Shown: positions 15,895-24,682 of the stretch, piece by piece | Position numbering within the stretch: position 1 is the first letter of the stretch | Layout of the letters: the number at the start of each line of letters is the position of its first letter | Assembly (NCBI RefSeq): GCF_001723685.1 | Contig: NZ_MCBX01000010.1 | Span: forward strand, 1 to 64,000 | Direction: 5' to 3' | DNA from: Candidatus Marithrix sp. Canyon 246 | GTDB lineage: Bacteria; Pseudomonadota; Gammaproteobacteria; Beggiatoales; Beggiatoaceae | Length of the DNA stretch: 64,000 nucleotides | Translations under genes and position numbers: made by a program | Notes under the pieces: model-generated | The model's database searches: none | What the model was told of the DNA's origin: nothing | Seen by the model: only the letters and a program-made list of their open reading frames with translations

Positions 15895-16710
15895 ATGCCT
15901 TTAATTAAAGATATAGAGTATTGGTTAGCTTTGGCGCATGTTCCTTTGTTTCCTATTAATTTTAGACGCTTAATTGATTTTTATGGTCATCCGCGTGCAG
16001 TTTTTGAGGCTAAGCATTGGTTGCCTGATTGGAATGCGGTGGAACAGGATTTGTTATGGCTAGATCAAAAAAATAATCATGTTTTGACTTTGTTTGATGC
16101 GAATTATCCTTTTATGTTGGCTGAAATTTATGATCCTCCATTTTTGTTATTTGTGAAAGGAGATTGTGAGTTGTTGAATAGTGTTCAGTTGGCTATTGTT
16201 GGAACTCGGCGTGCTAGTGGCTTTGCTAGGCAGGTTTCTTGGCAATTTGCTAAGGCTTTATCTGAGTGTGGTTTTGTTATTTGTGGTGGTTTGAGTTTGG
16301 GTATTGAAATGGCTAGTCATCAAGGGGCTTTGGCTGGTTCGGGTAAATCTGTTGGAGTGGCTTTTGAGGGTTTGGAGTATGTCAAAAATACTAGTTTTAG
16401 TACTTTAGTTTCTGAGATTTCACCTTATAATAAAATGGCGATTACTGCTGAAACTTTTAAGCGTCGTAGTCGTATTATTAGTGGTTTGAGTGTGGGAGTT
16501 TTGGTTGTGGAGGCTCCTGAAAATAGTCACGCGCTGTATCCAGTGGATTTTGCGCTTGAACAGGGGCGTGAGGTATTTGCAATGCCGGGATCAGTTTATA
16601 ATCCGTTGGTTAAGTCTTGTCATAAGTTAATTCAGGATGGGGCTAAATTGGTGGAAACTGTTCAGGATATTTTTGATGAATTGGAGATTTATAATGTTAG
16701 ACAGACCTGA
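15895..16710 (+). CDS. Second, divergent DprA-like protein
   Basis: A 271-residue paralogue of DprA (26482-27633), with the same N-terminal layout (YWLALAHVPLFPINFRRLI, HPRAVFEA) and Rossmann-fold core (LAIVGTRRASGFARQV, GGLSLGIEMASHQGAL, RRSRIISGLSVGVLVVEA, GREVFAMPGSVYNPLVKSC). Some DprA landmarks are altered: where DprA has GTGLDRVYPP this protein has FEGLEYVKNTS. It lacks the C-terminal winged-helix domain. The last codons and the TGA stop (16708-16710) lie inside the 33-bp palindrome, so the original 3' end was probably lost. It may be a decaying copy or a specialised ssDNA-binding paralogue. Confidence 0.85.
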   Translation: MPLIKDIEYWLALAHVPLFPINFRRLIDFYGHPRAVFEAKHWLPDWNAVEQDLLWLDQKNNHVLTLFDANYPFMLAEIYDPPFLLFVKGDCELLNSVQLAIVGTRRASGFARQVSWQFAKALSECGFVICGGLSLGIEMASHQGALAGSGKSVGVAFEGLEYVKNTSFSTLVSEISPYNKMAITAETFKRRSRIISGLSVGVLVVEAPENSHALYPVDFALEQGREVFAMPGSVYNPLVKSCHKLIQDGAKLVETVQDIFDELEIYNVRQT

Positions 16711-16735
16711 CAGGTTTTTAAAACCTGTCAGGTCT
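16703..16735. repeat. 33-bp palindrome, copy 2; supplies a stop codon
   Basis: Identical to copy 1 at 1726-1758. The DprA-like gene reads into its left arm and ends at the TGA within ACCTGACAGG, so the element forms the present 3' end of that gene. Confidence 0.95.
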
Positions 16736-16765
16736 AACTGACGAAAATAAGCCCAAGGAATCATG

Positions 16766-17059
16766 CTAACTATGGCTTTGATTGGCTTCCATGTATGATT
16801 TGTATGATTTTAATAATGAATTAATATTACTTTGATATTCCTTACCCTGAGCTTTAAACCAGTTAAGAACATCTGTATCAATATGTAAGCTAATCTGTGT
16901 TTTATTTGGAACTTGTTTTAGAGCTTTACGAACAATAGCGTTTGTAAATTTATCAGGAGATACTTCCGGAAGATCAGAGAAATCGATATCTTGATCTTTC
17001 ATTGCATCTATTGATTTCCAATCAGTTTCTGATTTTTGAATAATAGTTTCTCTCTTCAT
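16766..17059 (-). CDS. brnA: BrnA-type antitoxin
   Basis: A 97-residue protein of the BrnA antitoxin family. Landmarks are TDWKSIDAMKDQDIDFSD near the N-terminus and the ribbon-helix-helix segment KTQISLHIDTDVLNWFKAQGKEYQS near the C-terminus, which would bind the operator and autorepress. It overlaps the 3' end of brnT by 38 nt and lies downstream of it, the normal toxin-antitoxin order for BrnT/BrnA. It looks full length, although its partner is not. Confidence 0.88.
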   Translation of the reverse strand: MKRETIIQKSETDWKSIDAMKDQDIDFSDLPEVSPDKFTNAIVRKALKQVPNKTQISLHIDTDVLNWFKAQGKEYQSNINSLLKSYKSYMEANQSHS

Positions 17060-17276
17060 ACTTAGTTGCCTTACGAATTGAAATTATTCGTATATTGTTA
17101 TCTCTTTCAGTGTGAACAGTTGCTACAACGCGACTTTGAAGCATACCCAAAGTAACAAACCTTTGTTCTCCGTAGCTAATTCTATCATCTTCAAAGCTTA
17201 TGGTATAACCATCAAATATTTTTCGTCGATGTTGGAGTTTAGTTAAAATCAATCTCATAACTTGTACTTCTGCCAC
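17022..17276 (-). CDS. brnT: BrnT-type toxin, N-terminally altered
   Basis: The conserved body of a BrnT RelE-like ribonuclease is present: KIFDGYTISFEDDRISYGEQRFVTLG, VVATVHTERDNNIRIISIRKAT and YEERNYY. The usual start, about 20 residues with an F-E-W-D and N-x-x-K-H-G pattern, is missing. The reading frame instead begins inside the 3' end of the Fic remnant (ATG 17276 or 17258). A deletion appears to have joined the two genes. The toxin may be inactive, while the antitoxin downstream is intact. Confidence 0.7.
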   Translation of the reverse strand: MAEVQVMRLILTKLQHRRKIFDGYTISFEDDRISYGEQRFVTLGMLQSRVVATVHTERDNNIRIISIRKATKYEERNYYSKIRN

Positions 17277-17737
17277 TGCCGGGGCGTTTTTTTAGAATTT
17301 TTTTGATTTCTAAATCGGCAAGATCACGGCTGGCGGTTACTTTGCTGCATTTGCTGATACTAGCATATTTGCGCGTTGTCATTCCGCCTTCAAATTTATT
17401 TCCATCATTCAATAGGCGATTTAGTACTTTATGTTGTCTAGTATTGAGTGGGGTGTCTTTATGTTTATTCCAAAACTGGGTTTTTTTAATAACTTGTTCT
17501 ATGATCCAAGCTGAGTCATTCATTGCAGTAATGAGAGTTTGTAAAAAACCACTTTAACCAGCTAGTGATTTGCCCTTCAATTGCTGATGTTTCTATCGCA
17601 TCATCAGCCAACACCGCAGCTTCAAGCCCACCAATTAAGCGCGATAAGTTTGTAAGCTCAGGCAACAATTGTTTTAAATCATAACTGAAATTAGCCCAAT
17701 CAGGATGTTGCCAGATCCATTTTTGATATGTTTGCAT
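17239..17737 (-). pseudogene. Fic-family protein remnant lacking the catalytic core
   Basis: From ATG 17737 the frame encodes the Fic N-terminal region (YQKWIWQHPDWANFSYDLKQ), then ETSAIEGQ, which resembles the inhibitory-helix motif. It passes directly into the C-terminal part (SWLKWFFTN, then WIIEQVIKKTQFWNKH) and the winged-helix end (GSGRSTSYEIDFN). The central Fic fold with the HPFxxGNGR active site, about 150-200 residues, is absent. An extra T in a T-run near 17543 also shifts the frame. AMPylation activity is lost, and the 3' end overlaps brnT. Confidence 0.8.
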
Positions 17738-17818
17738 GGTTTAATCATATCAAATTTGATGTGATTAGACTATTTATTCGCATCAGCTTGCATATTTAAA
17801 CTGTCGGTGACTACTTTT

Positions 17819-17878
17819 AGTACAACGAATTAAGAATTAAACTAATTGAAATTCGTTTATTTCCTAATTCGTTGTACT
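17819..17878. repeat. 60-bp inverted-repeat element
   Basis: Perfect 14-bp arms AGTACAACGAATTA (17819-17832) and TAATTCGTTGTACT (17865-17878) enclose 32 bp. A related start, AGTACAACGGATTTA, occurs near 12458. It resembles a small non-coding palindromic element and lies between the Fic remnant and the FGE-fold gene. Confidence 0.8.
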
Positions 17879-17903
17879 ATTAGCCTGTTGGACTTTACAG
17901 AGA

Positions 17904-17925
17904 CTGATTAGCCGAAACTAATCAG
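17904..17925. repeat. Hairpin CTGATTAG/CTAATCAG downstream of variable region
   Basis: A perfect 8-bp stem with a 6-nt loop, 54 nt past the stop codon of the FGE-fold gene and about 65 nt beyond the end of the G+C-rich island. It is not followed by a T-run on either strand, so it is not a standard terminator. Some DGRs have a hairpin downstream of the variable region that stimulates homing; whether this one does so is open. Confidence 0.55.
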
Positions 17926-17978
17926 AAAACTTTAAAATTTAAAAGCTAAAAAAATTAAAATGGTAAAAGTGATAAAGT

Positions 17979-19193
17979 TTAAAGGGTTACGAGCATGGAG
18001 ACCCGGAAGCCCACGTCGTCGCTGCGGTACGTCGGCTTGCTCCTGCTGCGGTCAGCCGAGCGCATGTGCCACGCGACGCCGAGCCACGAGCCGCCGCGAA
18101 GGGACAAACTGTTTCCAGTTGTAACACATTGTTTTTCTTTACCATTATATTTATTTTCATATAATGAGCAAGTCCACTCATATACATTTCCTGAAGTGTC
18201 ATATAAACCAAATTGATTAGCAGCATAACTTCCCACTGGAGAAGTTTTACCAAGATTAACGTTATAATTTGCTTTACTTTTATCAATCTCATTACCCCAC
18301 CAATACTTAGTCTCCGTACCAGCCCTAGCCGCATATTCCCATTCAGCCTCAGTAGGCAGACGATATTGCTTACCAGTTTGATCACTAAGCCATGCTGCAT
18401 AAGCTGTAGCATCATTCCAAGAAACCTTAATTACCGGACGATTACCACGCCCCCAGATTCTATCATCAGGTTTACTTCTACCAGTAGCATCAGCAAACTT
18501 ATCATATTCAGCAAATGTCACTTCAAATTTCCCCATAGCAAACTGCCCCACAGAAACAGAATGCACTGGTTGTTCATCACTATCACCACCACCTTGAATA
18601 TCACCCATTCTAAAACTACCAGCAGGAATCATAACCATTTCTGGACCAGAGCTACCATCTTTCAAAGTATCACGAAAGGTAGAGCCAGCAGTTGGAGTTT
18701 GAGCTTCTGGAATATAAGTACCAACCACACCAAAAACACTAACACCAGCCCGAATATTTTCTGGTTTTAAATTAGCATCACCATCAATAACTATTGACTC
18801 ATAATAACCAGCACCACCAGCTTGTTGAGCAGCAGAAGGAGTATAATTTTTAGCACCATTATTAGGCATAGTACCTGTTTGTAAACCCCAACTATCAGTT
18901 AAGCCCCAATACTTTTTACCCGCAGGAACTTGATTTGGATTAACCCCATCTGCAACTTTAGCAGGGGCTTTATCCATTAACTCATTCAAACTACAAGCAA
19001 TTTTACTACCAGGAGCAGAACTAGGATCACTAAAAACCCGCATCTCACCACTAACACCACTATCCAAACGTTGACAAATATCAGAAAGACTATACATAGC
19101 ATTAGCAGCATCACCCGGTGGACCAGAAGGTCCAACAGAATATGCCGCTACAGGTAATAAATAAATTGTTAATAATGTTGATTTAATTTTCAT
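17979..19193 (-). CDS. Secreted FGE/C-type-lectin-fold protein, putative DGR target
   Basis: A 404-residue protein with a signal peptide (LLTIYLLPVAAYS), a middle segment (MPNNGAKN, IVIDGDANLKPENIRAGVSVFGVVGTY) common in envelope proteins, and a C-terminal FGE/sulfatase-modifying domain from about residue 183. Domain landmarks are MVMIPAGSFRMGD, GQFAMGKFEVTFAEYDKFA, RLPTEAEWEYAARAG and GLYDTSGNVYEWT. The last 40 residues (RGGSWLGVAWHMRSADRSRS and on to VGFRV) lack the cysteine pair of true formylglycine-generating enzymes. They instead have alternating variable and fixed positions, as in DGR-diversified C-type-lectin ligand-binding sites. The island encoding them is about 71% G+C. I infer a surface or periplasmic binding protein whose tip is hypermutated. 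Confidence 0.85.
   Translation of the reverse strand: MKIKSTLLTIYLLPVAAYSVGPSGPPGDAANAMYSLSDICQRLDSGVSGEMRVFSDPSSAPGSKIACSLNELMDKAPAKVADGVNPNQVPAGKKYWGLTDSWGLQTGTMPNNGAKNYTPSAAQQAGGAGYYESIVIDGDANLKPENIRAGVSVFGVVGTYIPEAQTPTAGSTFRDTLKDGSSGPEMVMIPAGSFRMGDIQGGGDSDEQPVHSVSVGQFAMGKFEVTFAEYDKFADATGRSKPDDRIWGRGNRPVIKVSWNDATAYAAWLSDQTGKQYRLPTEAEWEYAARAGTETKYWWGNEIDKSKANYNVNLGKTSPVGSYAANQFGLYDTSGNVYEWTCSLYENKYNGKEKQCVTTGNSLSLRGGSWLGVAWHMRSADRSRSKPTYRSDDVGFRVSMLVTL
17990..18101 (-). other. Putative DGR variable region (VR), G+C-rich
   Basis: A hand count of the 112 bases gives 80 G or C (about 71%), against roughly a third in surrounding DNA. On the coding strand, after RGGSW the variable-looking codons are CTC, GGC, GTC, CAC, GAC, AGC, AGC, TAC, AGC, GAC and GAC. 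All end in C, as expected if template AAC codons had their two adenines randomised. Between them sit fixed codons such as CGC TCG GCT and CGC. The 3' edge GTGGGCTTCCGGGTC is an adenine-free stretch of the kind that forms the initiation-of-mutagenic-homology end. No template repeat or reverse transcriptase is in the window. Confidence 0.7.
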
Positions 19194-19218
19194 TTTGTTT
19201 AATCCTTATATTGAAAAT

Positions 19219-19445
19219 AATTCATGGTGGGTTTCTACCCACCCTACATGATTGATAATTCATGGTGGGTTTCCGCTTCGTTACTACCCACTCTACATAA
19301 TTGATAATTCATGGTGGGTTTCCGCTTCGTTACTACCCACTCTACATGATTGATAATTCATGGTGGGTTTCCGCTTCGCTACTACCCACCCTACATGATT
19401 GATAATTCATGGTGGGTTTCCGCTTCGCTACTACCCACCCTACAT
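19219..19445. repeat. Tandem array of a 49-bp palindrome-bearing unit (5 copies)
   Basis: Units begin at CATGGTGGGTTT at 19223, 19261, 19310, 19359 and 19408. The first is 38 bp long and the rest 49 bp. Each contains GGTGGGT...ACCCAC(C) arms around CCGCTTCG(C/T)TACT and ends TACAT(G/A)ATTGATAATT. The same palindrome, as a large inverted repeat, lies at 49537-49634. There are no unique spacers, so it is not a CRISPR array. It lies between the divergent FGE-fold and caspase-like genes and runs into the 5' end of the latter. Confidence 0.92.
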
Positions 19446-21200
19446 AATAAATACACTTGGTCAAATAACGCTGGCTGGTTTGATTTTAATCCTAATAATG
19501 GCGGTGTTACAGTATTTCCAGATCATTTGGAAGGTTATGCTTGGTCAGATAACATTGGTTGGTTAAAATTAAGCGGCGAAAACTGGGGCGTGATTCATGA
19601 TGGGCAAGGTAATTTATCAGGTTATGCTTGGAATCCAAATTTTGGTTGGATCATGTTTAAATCAGATCATTCTCAAGTAAAAATTAACCTAGAAACAGGT
19701 GATTTTAATGGTTATGCGTGGTCAGATTTAATAGGTTGGATAAGTTTTAATGGCAAATCTTATAAAGTTCAAGCTAACTTAGCACCACCATCAACCAGCT
19801 TGGGTACAGCGATTCTGATAGCAGGTAGTGGCGCACATAAACAAAATACCTTATTTAAATATAGTCAAGATTTAAATCTACAAATGTATAATACCCTACT
19901 TCAGCGTGGTTATACTGATGATGACATTATTTATTTCAATCCCTTCAAAGGTGGGCAAGATATTGATGGTGATGGTAAAGAAGAAGATAATATAGTAGAT
20001 TATCAATTATTTGACCCTCTAAGCGAATTAGAAGCCGCATTTGATAGTATCAAATATTTGCAAGCTGGGCAACAATTTATCTTCTATTTTCATGGACATG
20101 CAAATCCAGAGCAGCTACAAATGAATTTAGAAAACTGGCTATCAGCCGAAGAATTAAAGCGTCTATTAGACAAAGTTCCAACAGCGGCTCAACAACTAAT
20201 CATACTTGACAGCTGTTATTCAGGATCATTTTTAAATGAATTATCAGCGACAAACCGAATAATAGTAGCCAGTGCCGATGCCAAAACTCGTGCTTGGAAT
20301 GCCAAATATGACAACTTTTCAGAACCCTTAATCAGCGAATTGCGACGTGGCAAAAGCATAAAGGATGCCTTCATAACTACCAAAGACTATATGCAAACGA
20401 AACCAACACTGTTTGGTAAACAAATTCCACAACTAGATGGAAGACTAGCAAAAAAATTTATACTAGGCAAAGAAGGAACACATGCAGCAGCCGCTCCCTA
20501 CATGATTGACATTCATTCGCCACTAATCCTGACACCACAACAAAAAGAAGGATTTTTATGGGTAAAAACTTCCCCAAGCGGAGAAAATATACGTAAAGTA
20601 AGAGCAGTATTAATACCACCAAATATAAAAAGCACAGAATACCAAGGAGAAGCAACCAATTTCCAGCGACAAGAAACAATAATGACATACCAAGCAGAAA
20701 GAAATCGTTATGAAACAGTGTATTCAGGCTTCAACCGAACAGGCACTTGGCAAATAAGCTACCAAGCCCAAGGCATAGATGGAACATGGTCAGACAAATT
20801 AACAGGAGAAGTACAAGCCAGCGGCACATCAGCATTAACAGTAAGACTAAATCAAAGCAGCTACAAAATAGGCAACCGCTTTAGATTTATGCTAGATATA
20901 AACGAAGTTCCAAACACCCCCAGCCCATATGATCTATATGCAGCGATAATATTTCCAGCCGGCTACTTTGTAACAATAAGCTACCCACTAAACATAAACT
21001 TACCGGGAACAATTCAAACATACCATAAAAAGGTAAAAATCAACTCAACAAAAAGCTTCCCAATAATAGACATAAACCTCCCCCCCGGCTTAGCGACAGG
21101 CAAATATAACACCTGCGGAATAATAACCACACCAGAAACAGACCCTTGGAACAATGCCAACTGGCTAGCCCAAGATTGCAAAATCTTTGAATTGAAATAA
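19350..21200 (+). CDS. Caspase-like (C13/C14) protease with W-rich repeats
   Basis: The N-terminal third carries about four repeats of a motif like YAWSDNIGWLKLSGE (GYAWNPNFGWIMF, GYAWSDLIGWISF), common in secreted beta-rich proteins. Residues about 150-365 form a caspase/legumain-like domain with the His dyad in FYFHGHANPE (H250 counted from 19350) and the Cys dyad in IILDSCYSGSF (C289). The C-terminal part looks like beta-sandwich domains (YETVYSGFNRTGTWQISYQA). The open frame begins inside the 49-bp tandem array, so the first residues are repeat-encoded. No signal peptide is visible, so the native start has probably been overwritten. Confidence 0.82.
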   Translation: MIIHGGFPLRYYPPYMIDNSWWVSASLLPTLHNKYTWSNNAGWFDFNPNNGGVTVFPDHLEGYAWSDNIGWLKLSGENWGVIHDGQGNLSGYAWNPNFGWIMFKSDHSQVKINLETGDFNGYAWSDLIGWISFNGKSYKVQANLAPPSTSLGTAILIAGSGAHKQNTLFKYSQDLNLQMYNTLLQRGYTDDDIIYFNPFKGGQDIDGDGKEEDNIVDYQLFDPLSELEAAFDSIKYLQAGQQFIFYFHGHANPEQLQMNLENWLSAEELKRLLDKVPTAAQQLIILDSCYSGSFLNELSATNRIIVASADAKTRAWNAKYDNFSEPLISELRRGKSIKDAFITTKDYMQTKPTLFGKQIPQLDGRLAKKFILGKEGTHAAAAPYMIDIHSPLILTPQQKEGFLWVKTSPSGENIRKVRAVLIPPNIKSTEYQGEATNFQRQETIMTYQAERNRYETVYSGFNRTGTWQISYQAQGIDGTWSDKLTGEVQASGTSALTVRLNQSSYKIGNRFRFMLDINEVPNTPSPYDLYAAIIFPAGYFVTISYPLNINLPGTIQTYHKKVKINSTKSFPIIDINLPPGLATGKYNTCGIITTPETDPWNNANWLAQDCKIFELK

Positions 21201-21210
21201 AATGTTAAAA

Positions 21211-21243
21211 AGACCTGACAGGTTTTAAAAACCTGTCAGGTCT
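21211..21243. repeat. 33-bp palindrome, copy 3
   Basis: Same family as 1726-1758, centre TTTTAAAAA. It lies between the caspase-like gene and the PiT remnant, and is part of a segment repeated at 23576-24101 (offset 2487), including copy 4 at 23698. Confidence 0.95.
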
Positions 21244-21259
21244 AACACCCTATTTTATG

Positions 21260-21637
21260 TTAGGAAACAAGATAATACATTAACGCGCTAAAAAATATTG
21301 CAACTGGTAAGGTAATTAGCCATGATAGGATTATGCTGCTAATTATTTTAGCATTGACATTGCCGCTAATCATTCCAATGCCAAATATTGAGCCTACAGA
21401 TACGTGGGTGGTGGATACTGGTATTCCGAATTTGCTGGCAATTATTACTAAGAAGCTAGTCACTAGGTTGGCTGAGAAGCCTTGGCTATGATTTATCTCA
21501 GTAATTTTGTGGCTGATGGTTTCAGCTACCCGACGTGCATTTAATAATCCTCCAATTGCCATTCCTAGTGCAATTGCTACCATTGCAAAACGAATATCAA
21601 GGGCTTGTGCTGCTCCACTAGTTGTATGGGCTATATC
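21260..21637 (-). pseudogene. PiT phosphate transporter remnant (C-terminal part)
   Basis: Matches the 3' part of the intact PiT gene (23747-24184) with scattered mismatches. The frame from 21583 to 21260 encodes the last 107 residues (MVAIALGMAIGGLLNARRV to the end). Upstream, 60 bp present in the intact gene (24102-24161) are missing, and the joint falls in the 7-bp direct repeat TGCTGCT. The sequence then breaks off at GGCTATATC and passes directly into a dprA remnant. It cannot make a transporter. Confidence 0.9.
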
Positions 21638-21816
21638 ATGTTATGGTTAGACAAACCACAGCGTCAATTATTAACTTTATATCATTCAGATTATCCGCCG
21701 CACGCGATATTATTTATACATGGTGATAGTACAGTATTACTATTACTAGTGGCTTGGCATTAGGCATTGATGGTGCAAGTTGTCAGCGGTTTAAGTTTAG
21801 CTACTTTAGTTATTGA
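21638..21816 (+). pseudogene. dprA remnant with several internal deletions
   Basis: Four collinear pieces of the intact dprA gene (26482-27633) are recognisable. 21638-21700 matches 26698-26760 with about five mismatches. Next comes a piece around ATTATTTATACATGGTGATA, then one around ATTACTAGTGGCTTGGCATT, and last TGTCAGCGGTTTAAGTTTAG to TATTGA. Three deletions separate them. Order and strand match the intact locus, so this is a duplicated and then shortened copy. Confidence 0.9.
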
Positions 21817-22013
21817 TTAAGCTGATTGCTGCTATTCTTTCCTGTCTTTTCAAGTTTTTTAGCTGTTAAGCCACTGAATAATCAATACTGGTACTGATAT
21901 TGCGGTTATTTTAAACGATTGCCATTGATCATACGGTAAATGCAATCAAAAAAAACCGCACTGCCTAAAGAAGTGGCAGAGAATCTTTCTCAAATACAAC
22001 ATAGATAAAAAAA
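21817..22013. other. Intergenic stretch, no recognisable gene
   Basis: AT-rich sequence with stops in all frames. CTGCC-TAAAGAAGT-GGCAG at about 21962-21980 could form a short hairpin. It probably holds the promoter of the membrane protein gene at 22014, but no convincing -35/-10 pair could be assigned. Confidence 0.4.
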
Positions 22014-23522
22014 ATGATTTTTCGTATAAAAAAAGAAGATTGGTATTTACTTATTATTTTTTCAATGATAGCAATTGCTATTTTTGTGAAATCATATTTT
22101 AACCCTGATGGATTTTTAACAATAGATTCAACAGGATATTTAGCATTATCACAAAATTTATTAGATGGAAATGGTTTTTTTGTATCTTTCTATGGACTAA
22201 CGGGTAATGACAGAGAATTTTTTGCAATATGGCCCATTGGGTATTCATCTCTTATTTATCTTACAGCAAAATTAACTGGTCTTTCAGTTTTTTGGGCTTC
22301 AAAAGTCTTAAATATATTTCTCATAGGATTGATTTTAAGTGTTTTTAGAGTATTGTTTAAGCATAATGCTTATGTATATGGTTTCATATTTTTATTTGCA
22401 TCTTCTATAGAAATATTTACCTATACTTGGAGTGAAACTGTTTTTATTTTTGGTCTAGTTTGGTTTGGTATTTCGATTTATATGTTTATGTTGGAGCCTA
22501 AAAAATTAGTTTTAATATATATTTCTTTATTTGTTTCATCTCTATTTTTATTTTTGTCAAGGTACATAGGGGCTTTTAGCTTTGGTTTGATTGGATTGCT
22601 TGGATTGTATTATGGATTTGTAAAAAAAGATAAATCTAAGTCAATTATTTTAATAACGATTGCTAGCTTTAATATAGTAATCATGTTTGGATACCTTTAT
22701 CACAATTATCTTCAAACAGGTTTTCCTACAGGTATGCCAAGGATAGCTGCACCTGAGACAGATGGAGAATTATTTGTGATGTTGCTTAGGGCAATAATAT
22801 CTGAAACTATAATTCCTATGAATAGCATCTCAAAAACAGCTATGCTAATTTTTTGGATGCAGTTTTCTGTACTGATCTATCTCATAGTCAAATATAGAAC
22901 AAGTATTTTTAATGTACTAAAAAATAGTCAGAACAATAAAACTAGAAAATTAGTTTTAGTATTTATTTCAATCGGTTTAGTCTATTTGTTTTTTATAATA
23001 CTGATGCGATGGCTAGTTCAATTTGATACTTATAGAGCTAGATTGCTTGCACCGGGAAGTTTTTTACTCTTCATCGCTTTTATTGTTTATATCGAAAAAT
23101 TTACAACTGAAAAATTATTCAATGAGTTTAAAATTTTCTTACTATCGTTTGCGCTATTATCTTATTTTATAAATTTTCCGTATAGTGTATGGAAACAAGA
23201 TAAACAAGCTATGTATAATGAAACTATACAAAATATAGAAAAAAAATATGCTGATGTAGATAAAAATAGTATTGTGGTTTTTGGGAATATACACTTGAAG
23301 TACCTCTATACTGATATACAAATAGGAAAACCATTTTATCTACCTTATTATACGAATAAAGAAAGCTGGTCTAATTTTATTAACAGGATTAATCCAAAAC
23401 ATAAAAAGGATGTTTATTTAGTGACATCAGAGTATAACAAGGTTAAACCTAAATATTATGATCAAACAATAGTAAATCTTGTAGAAAAATATAAACACTA
23501 TCCTATAGTAAAATTGCCATGA
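22014..23522 (+). CDS. Polytopic membrane protein, GT-C glycosyltransferase-like
   Basis: A 502-residue protein with about ten hydrophobic segments. Its first periplasmic loop (GFLTIDSTGYLALSQNLLDG) has the acidic pattern of GT-C/PMT-type glycosyltransferases, followed by FFAIWPIGYSSLIYL. A C-terminal soluble part contains NSIVVFGNIHLKYLY. This architecture suggests transfer of a sugar from a lipid carrier on the outer face of the inner membrane; donor and acceptor are unknown. It is more AT-rich than its neighbours and separates the two copies of a duplicated segment, suggesting later insertion. Confidence 0.65.
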   Translation: MIFRIKKEDWYLLIIFSMIAIAIFVKSYFNPDGFLTIDSTGYLALSQNLLDGNGFFVSFYGLTGNDREFFAIWPIGYSSLIYLTAKLTGLSVFWASKVLNIFLIGLILSVFRVLFKHNAYVYGFIFLFASSIEIFTYTWSETVFIFGLVWFGISIYMFMLEPKKLVLIYISLFVSSLFLFLSRYIGAFSFGLIGLLGLYYGFVKKDKSKSIILITIASFNIVIMFGYLYHNYLQTGFPTGMPRIAAPETDGELFVMLLRAIISETIIPMNSISKTAMLIFWMQFSVLIYLIVKYRTSIFNVLKNSQNNKTRKLVLVFISIGLVYLFFIILMRWLVQFDTYRARLLAPGSFLLFIAFIVYIEKFTTEKLFNEFKIFLLSFALLSYFINFPYSVWKQDKQAMYNETIQNIEKKYADVDKNSIVVFGNIHLKYLYTDIQIGKPFYLPYYTNKESWSNFINRINPKHKKDVYLVTSEYNKVKPKYYDQTIVNLVEKYKHYPIVKLP

Positions 23523-23746
23523 TCATAGTAGTTTGATTTTTGCAGAATATTTGCGCGTTGTCATTCCACCACCATCTTAGCGACAGGCAAATATAACACC
23601 TGCGGAATAATAACCACACCAGAAACAGATCCTTGGAACAATGCCAACTGGCTAGCCCAAGATTGCAAAATCTTTGAATTGAAATAAAATGTTAAAAAGA
23701 CCTGACAGGTTTTAAAAACCTGTCAGGTCTAACACCCTATTTTATG
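23523..23746. other. Duplicated non-coding segment with caspase-gene tail
   Basis: From 23576 the sequence repeats 21089-21260: the last ~110 bp of the caspase-like gene, its stop, and a 33-bp palindrome. Just before it, TATTTGCGCGTTGTCATTCC (about 23549-23568) matches the Fic remnant near 17370. The stretch is therefore a patchwork of copied gene ends. Confidence 0.85.
23698..23730. repeat. 33-bp palindrome, copy 4
   Basis: Identical to copy 3 (21211-21243), carried along in the duplicated segment. It lies downstream of the intact PiT gene. Confidence 0.95.
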
Positions 23747-24682
23747 TTAGGAAACAAGATAATACATTAACGCGCTAAAAAATATTGCAACTGGTAAGGT
23801 AATTAGCCATGATAGGATTATGCTGCTAATTACTTTAGCATTAGCATTGCCGCTAATCATTCCAATGCCAAATATTGAGCCTACAGATACGTGGGTGGTG
23901 GATACTGGTATTCCGAATTTGCTGGCAATTATTACTAAGAAGCTAGTCACTAGGTTGGCTGAGAAGCCTTGGCTATGATTTATTTCAGTAATTTTGTGGC
24001 TGATGGTTTCTGCTACGCGACGTGCATTTAATAATCCTCCAATTGCCATTCCTAGTGCAATTGCTACCATTGCAAAACGAATATCAAGGGCTTGTGCTGC
24101 TACTAGTAAGCCGGCTATTTTTGGGGTATCGTTTAAACCACGAGCAAATGATACTGCTGCTCCACTAGTTGTATGGGCTATATCTAATAGTTTGTTGTCT
24201 TTGCGGTTGCCTATTATCCAATATGCCGTTGCACCCAAGGCAAATGCTATAAATGGGCTAACTAATAGTGGTATAAAAAACACGGTTCCGAGTTGGTTAA
24301 AATTGACATCCCAGCCAACTGCCATCAACCCAGCTCCAAACAATCCACCGACTAAGCTGTGAGTGGTTGAAATTGGAAAACCTAATCTAGTGGCTAATAA
24401 TACGGTACAAGCGGCACCAAAACTGACTGCCATTAAAAAATCAGTTGCTCCAGCAACATTTTGAGGAACTAAACCTTTGCCTGAAAAACTGCTTATTAAC
24501 CCTTGAGCTAAAAATATTGCACTTATAGAACCAGCAAAAGTAGCAATAGTGGCAATTGTAATAGCGGTTTTATAGCTACAAGTTCCACTACCATAAAGTG
24601 TTGCTACGCCTTTGAAGTTATCATTGGCACCATTAACATATGCTAGAAATAATGTTGCAAAGAATAGTAGATAAATAAGCAT
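23747..24682 (-). CDS. PiT-family inorganic phosphate transporter
   Basis: An inner-membrane phosphate (metal-phosphate) symporter of 311 residues, on the short side for PiT. Both inverted-repeat signatures are present: VNGANDNFKGVATLYGSG near the N-terminus and FARGLNDTPKIAGLL near residue 180. GFPISTTHSLVGG and GIPVSTTHVSVGS are also present, together with about eight to ten hydrophobic segments. The gene appears complete, unlike the remnant at 21260. No PhoU or DUF47 partner gene is adjacent. The amino-acid-binding protein gene lies upstream in the same direction, 94 nt away. Confidence 0.92.
   Translation of the reverse strand: MLIYLLFFATLFLAYVNGANDNFKGVATLYGSGTCSYKTAITIATIATFAGSISAIFLAQGLISSFSGKGLVPQNVAGATDFLMAVSFGAACTVLLATRLGFPISTTHSLVGGLFGAGLMAVGWDVNFNQLGTVFFIPLLVSPFIAFALGATAYWIIGNRKDNKLLDIAHTTSGAAVSFARGLNDTPKIAGLLVAAQALDIRFAMVAIALGMAIGGLLNARRVAETISHKITEINHSQGFSANLVTSFLVIIASKFGIPVSTTHVSVGSIFGIGMISGNANAKVISSIILSWLITLPVAIFFSALMYYLVS

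Follow-up and report, generated by a model that had tools for sequence, protein, structure and literature searches.

A G+C-rich gene tail in Candidatus Marithrix is very probably a remote variable repeat of a DGR on another contig

Introduction

A gene in a 64,000-nt stretch of the Candidatus Marithrix sp. Canyon 246 genome (the whole stretch is hereafter called the window) ends in a tail that is far richer in G+C than the DNA around it. From the letters of the window alone, this tail had been predicted to be the variable region of a diversity-generating retroelement (DGR) target that is served from elsewhere in the genome. Is the tail a variable repeat (VR), and where are its template repeat (TR) and reverse transcriptase (RT)? 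The comparisons reported here make it very probable that the tail is a remote VR of the DGR on contig C20 (locus L017) of the same genome.

Results

A G+C-rich tail on an FGE-fold protein

The 112 nt at positions 17990-18101 contain 80 G+C (71.4%), compared with 34.5% for the window overall. They form the maximum for any 112-nt stretch of the window, the best count elsewhere being 64. A tail of about 71% G+C in DNA of about one-third G+C had been predicted and is what we observe, and the eleven NNC codons that had been read after the motif RGGSW are all there. The tail itself was placed correctly; its exact ends were not, the 114-nt repeat (Table 1) lying 6-8 bases off.

Table 1. Features of the window and of the DGR locus on contig C20
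Feature	Position	Strand	Basis or remark
Segment with target gene	window 16693..23745		other genes between same neighbours in congener G026
DGR target gene (variable protein), 404 aa	window 17979..19193	-	PF03781, 197 bits vs. cut-off 23.3
VR, 114 nt	window 17996..18109	-	15 of 16 mismatches to C20 template at template adenines
3' flank including stop codon	window 17956..17995	-	alike in seven targets, unlike template flank
RT, 298 aa, intact frame	C20 7753-8649	-	RVT_1, 74.8 bits
Avd, 104 aa	C20 8636-8950	-	bAvd PF22296, 44.7 bits over 40
MutS-domain-I protein, 112 aa	C20 9058-9396	+	matches only MutS domain I, PF01624
TR, 114 nt	C20 9438-9551	+	outside any ORF of at least 60 aa
Cognate FGE target gene	C20 9960-11111 (from ATG)	-	carries full-length VR

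The product of the target gene has an FGE-sulfatase/C-type-lectin-fold domain at its C-terminal end (aa 183-398), preceded by an N-terminal region without a Pfam domain. In an AlphaFold model, blocks of ten residues from aa 171 to 400 had pLDDT values of 76-98; the whole-chain mean was 69.4, and the model is confident for the FGE domain only. Structure comparison showed that the modelled domain resembles PvdO, FGE and the Treponema denticola variable protein 2y3c, which the window protein also matches in sequence (E 1e-17). By its Pfam match and by these likenesses the product is a C-type-lectin/FGE-fold protein with the VR in its C-terminal part. Since the tail is variable, catalytic (formylglycine-generating) activity is unlikely, and the likeness is taken to be one of fold only. 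A hydrophobic, signal-like N-terminus, recognized by eye, suggests that the protein is secreted, as had been predicted. No PADLOC defence model matched it.

A palindromic CTGATTAG...CTAATCAG element was seen downstream of the window VR, at about 17890-17935, and also downstream of the VR in loci L019, L020 and L024. It sits some 50-90 bp downstream of several repeats and is a candidate terminator or DGR cis element.

Template, RT and Avd on another contig

A search of the host's own genome (G000; 3.24 Mb, 44 contigs) with the window tail yielded 13 matches. Consistent with the original prediction, neither an RVT_1 match nor a template was detected on the contig of the window; RT, Avd and TR lie together on C20 (Table 1), making the window gene a remote target. 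The TR reads SLRGGSWNNNARNVRSANRNRNKPTNRNNNVGFRVS and contains eleven AAC codons, which are exactly the codons that appear as the eleven NNC codons of the window. The window VR differs from the TR at 16 of 114 positions, 15 of them at template adenines, which is the relation that the prediction had called for; the remaining difference is a G>A change (Val to Met). This last change and an adenine-derived change of AGG to TGG had been missed when only the NNC codons were read as variable.

The GNLTSQ motif marks DGR RTs; it is present in the C20 RT and was invariant in an alignment of 13 RT relatives, which also contained YVDD (YMDD in two). The best PDB hit of the profile built from this alignment was 8ub7, which we take to be the Bordetella DGR RT, at 1.7e-69 (next best, 1.5e-34). 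The Avd frame was recognized by PF22296 and by the PHROG 'Avd protein of DGR', and its score against NCBIfam NF033474 was 77.6, slightly under the cut-off of 80. At the gathering threshold, Rfam gave no match within the DGR locus, and five promoters were predicted around the template, compared with 4.2 expected.

Seven repeats that differ at template adenines

Seven FGE genes, each on a contig of its own (C3, C11, C17, C20, C30, C34 and C43), carry at their 3' ends a full-length 114-nt match to the TR. Mismatches fell at template adenines in 15/16 cases in C3, 15/16 in C11, 12/12 in C17, 14/14 in C20, 12/14 in C30, 10/10 in C34 and 14/15 in C43, or 92/97 in all, with adenines making up 28 of the 114 template bases (binomial 1.3e-49). 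The substitution spectrum of the seven VRs comprised 50 A>G, 36 A>T and 6 A>C changes, and 26 of the 28 template adenines were changed in at least one VR. Taking the product of the codon options at adenines, about 4e15 tails are possible per gene, and one codon can become a stop.

Across the 114 nt, the seven VRs differed from one another, as means of 21 pairs, at 1.6% of non-adenine and 60% of adenine positions. The 150 bp upstream differed by a mean of 20% over the same pairs; low divergence at non-adenine positions beside such divergence upstream is as expected from recurrent homing, or overwriting, by one template. Partial or decayed matches were also present, with mismatches at adenines in 9/26 cases in C25, 7/9 over 60 nt in C6 and 15/36 in C4, along with a further weak match on C22. 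An exact scan of viral contigs for the VR pattern gave 0 matches, and a plasmid scan gave one partial match, in Prosthecochloris, covering 18% of the query.

Three observations count against assigning the window tail to the C20 DGR: the 5 of 97 mismatches at non-adenine positions, the Avd score below the NCBIfam cut-off, and the placement of the template opposite to the RT. We nevertheless regard the assignment as very probable.

A congener with VR-like tails and no detectable DGR-type RT

RT matches at E 1e-40 or better were found in 11 of 42 family genomes, the window's own included, and comparison of contig sequences placed a Candidatus Parabeggiatoa and a Thiomargarita among the RT-bearing relatives. 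In the congener G026 (98% complete; assembly gaps are possible), a DGR-type RT was not found; its two RT matches (28-31% identity, frames of 613-631 aa) were read as group II intron type. Six template matches were obtained in G026, none of which looks like a template, because each has at least 10 changes at adenines.

The six G026 tails were compared with the C20 template over 99 columns (72 non-adenine and 27 adenine positions). Non-adenine differences numbered 5 in C8a, 5 in C11, 11 in C8b, 11 in C6, 16 in C3 and 16 in C10, and adenine differences in the same order 14, 20, 13, 16, 10 and 15. The excess at adenines was significant in five of the six tails (Fisher 7e-11 to 2e-3), C3 being the exception (p = 0.11). 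Mean pairwise non-adenine difference over these columns was 24% among the six G026 tails vs. 1.2% among the seven G000 repeats, a contrast that may in part reflect template type, as at least two types may be mixed in G026. Tails C8b and C6 are only 2.8% apart, and a second template type may therefore once have existed in this genome. From these sequences, G026 seems to have kept six decaying VR-like tails while its machinery is apparently absent.

The state of G026 bears on the main rival to an operating DGR in G000, namely that the element is real but has recently become inactive, its repeats being frozen products of past homing of the kind that G026 seems to hold. That a congener retains such tails with no DGR-type RT found makes this conceivable; in G000, however, RT and Avd keep intact frames beside an intact template, and its seven repeats have not drifted apart at non-adenine positions as the G026 tails have. 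We consider recent inactivity unlikely.

The two genomes also differ at the site of the window target. Both sides of the segment that carries it match one 17-kb G026 stretch at 90-93.5% DNA identity (blastn), and the segment itself (16693-23745) has no such match there, except for a copy of a PiT 3' end. As other genes stand between the same neighbours in G026, the window target seems to occupy an exchangeable site. The copy in question, 364 bp at window 21259-21622, repeats the 3' end of a PiT-type phosphate transporter gene (named by eye) whose full length is at 23747-24682, and may mark how the segment was inserted. The divergent neighbour of the target (19350-21200, plus strand) encodes a 616-aa protein with a Peptidase_C13 match of 36 bits and has eleven G026 matches at E 1e-10 or better.

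Flanks and third codon positions

Could the seven genes be ordinary paralogs, a duplicated FGE family homogenized by gene conversion at its 3' ends, with no retroelement involved? The targets are indeed paralogous, and their 3' flanks are also alike, differing by a mean of 12% over 40 bp downstream (21 pairs). Gene conversion would not, however, confine changes to template adenines, and the adenine-bearing copy is a repeat outside any ORF of at least 60 aa, beside an RT and Avd; we give this explanation almost no weight. The 3' flank at 17956..17995 is a candidate initiation-of-homing or other 3' element. Alternatively its likeness may reflect shared descent, because C4 and C6, whose tails are decayed, are flanked by similar sequence.

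Third-codon-position G+C was 0.94-0.97 in the tails of the seven DGR targets, 0.70 in C25 and 0.82 in C22. A further seven FGE tails ranged over 0.125-0.485, the top value belonging to C4, a decayed relative of the repeats. This comparison entered 18 of the 24 FGE matches of the genome, two of the 18 being without a motif-found tail of their own. FGE tails with low third-position G+C indicate that the protein motif can be encoded without such G+C richness. In the cognate C20 target the value is 0.90 in the tail vs. 0.21 in the gene body, as would also be seen if a G+C-rich tail had been acquired from a foreign source and then passed on by ordinary descent, but such a transfer could explain the origin of the template and not the pattern of one tail in seven genes differing almost only at adenines, and we judge it scarcely credible.

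Enrichment in G+C was also considered as a general DGR signature, over 63 loci (the 72 loci with a TR-VR pair, less one duplicate record and eight loci whose frame could not be used). Third positions of the VR were richer in G+C than the gene body in 59 of the 63. When only codons without A were counted, the excess was small (mean +0.055; 39/63 loci, p = 0.045), as was the trend in C/(C+T) (38/63 loci, p = 0.054); these tests ignore kinship, and the loci are related by descent. We rejected the general signature: the small A-free effect indicates that avoidance of adenine together with AAC codons explains most of the VR excess. The C20 template stands apart from the set, with a third-position G+C in its A-free codons (0.86) that clearly exceeds the averages of other DGR loci; the upstream A-free codons of its cognate target have 0.19.

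Seven FGE targets, two with caspase domains

An FGE domain is present in all seven target proteins. In two of the seven (C34 and C30), and in the decayed C25, it is combined with a Peptidase_C14 caspase domain. The two caspase-FGE fusions among the seven score 36 and 32 bits against the PADLOC caspase model. Lipoprotein-like N-termini were recognized by eye in C34, C30 and C43. The C11 target (L019:4525-5181) carries a full repeat with the FGE domain only and a stop a short way upstream, and may have lost its N-terminal part.

In a reconstituted DGR, targets co-directional with replication were diversified more, according to a 2026 study (PMC12875486). Around the seven VRs, G+C skew over 28-120 kb was weak and mixed, being positive along the VR strand in 3 of 7 within 20 kb.

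A template opposite to the RT, behind a MutS-like gene

The C20 template begins 41 bp past the MutS-domain-I gene and shares its strand, which is the one opposite to RT and Avd. De novo TR-VR pairing over 95 DGR loci, scored by the best pair in each, found a pair in 72 (rows L140 and L170 are one contig). The template was on the RT strand in 69 of these 72. In two, L017 and the Anaerolineae contig L218, the template opposes RT and VR alike. L132 has its RT on one strand and both template and VR on the other, which is the inverted type of PMC3521204; the C20 locus departs from that type, its local VR and target being on the RT strand. L138 (G013), which gave no pair, has a template-like stretch opposite to the RT and an FGE gene on the strand of that stretch. 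Cassette patterns with an inverted RT are reported in PMC6642488.

The MutS-domain-I protein corresponds to MSL, which carries PF01624 and is named as a known DGR accessory in PMC10053308. A tblastn search located it in three of the 95 loci (L017, L134 and L176). Of the 42 family genomes, three had a match at E 1e-12, the one in G025 being a fragment; viral contigs gave one short match of 16 residues. The G025 fragment belongs to locus L241 (G025:C261), seemingly a degenerate DGR, where an FGE target, Avd and a 63-aa RT remnant (by eye) accompany it. There the MutS-like protein is truncated at the contig end, and its gene and that of Avd diverge, as they do on C20.

Because the template follows the MutS-like gene closely and on its strand, opposite to RT and Avd, the two might form a separate transcription unit. 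The element would then be a trans-acting, template-autonomous DGR for seven envelope receptors whose genes are scattered, two of them linked to caspases; the MutS-like protein would assist in the use of the template or shield the many mismatches that arise in homing. We put this forward as a speculative proposal and consider it unlikely.

Discussion

By the mechanism of known DGRs, RT-Avd would copy the template RNA into cDNA, inserting random bases at adenines, and this cDNA would then overwrite, in trans, the 3' end of one or another of the seven target genes. The residues that change would belong to the C-terminal portion of the FGE/C-type-lectin fold, which by analogy is its ligand-binding face. 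The likely role of these proteins, with their signal-like or lipoprotein-like N-termini, is variable recognition at the cell envelope, as sensor or adhesin.

Earlier work has described targets that are remote or of the FGE/C-type-lectin type, templates in inverted position, MSL, and strains that keep targets while lacking the RT (PMC6642488, PMC3521204, PMC10053308, PMC7517822 and PMC4891356). Cyanobacterial DGRs (PMC7517822) share remote C-type-lectin targets, a VR near the gene 3' end and grafted N-terminal domains; the present host has a Beggiatoaceae-type genome, and an opposite template and a MutS-like protein are stated of the C20 locus only. The T. denticola DGR (PMC4891356) shares lipoprotein signals on variable proteins, remote targets, and isolates that keep targets without RT and template. 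It differs in organism, and the window protein matches its 2y3c in both sequence and fold. The inverted DGRs of Shewanella, Vibrio and Photobacterium share with C20 the placement of RT and template on opposite strands. In PMC3521204, however, TR, VR and target stand together opposite to the RT, whereas on C20 it is the template and the MutS-like gene that oppose RT, Avd and the local target. Among the literature matches listed for DGRs with Beggiatoa, Thiotrichales or Thiomargarita, none carried a DGR term.

Multicellular bacteria such as Thiohalocapsa PB-PSB1 (PMC10907252) likewise have C-type-lectin/FGE targets, some of them protease-tied, in aggregate-forming sulfur bacteria. Nine DGR loci with four template classes and STAND-NTPase and MoxR-type conflict systems are given there; here a single template matches seven genes that lie far apart, and two of these encode a caspase (Peptidase_C14) domain.

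The window target was recognizable in raw sequence from one gene tail, far from the RT, by its third-position G+C island of NNC codons. Together, G000 and G026 allow a direct comparison of maintained with decaying variable repeats, and the caspase-FGE targets connect DGRs in this organism to the sensor role proposed for other sulfur bacteria (PMC10907252).
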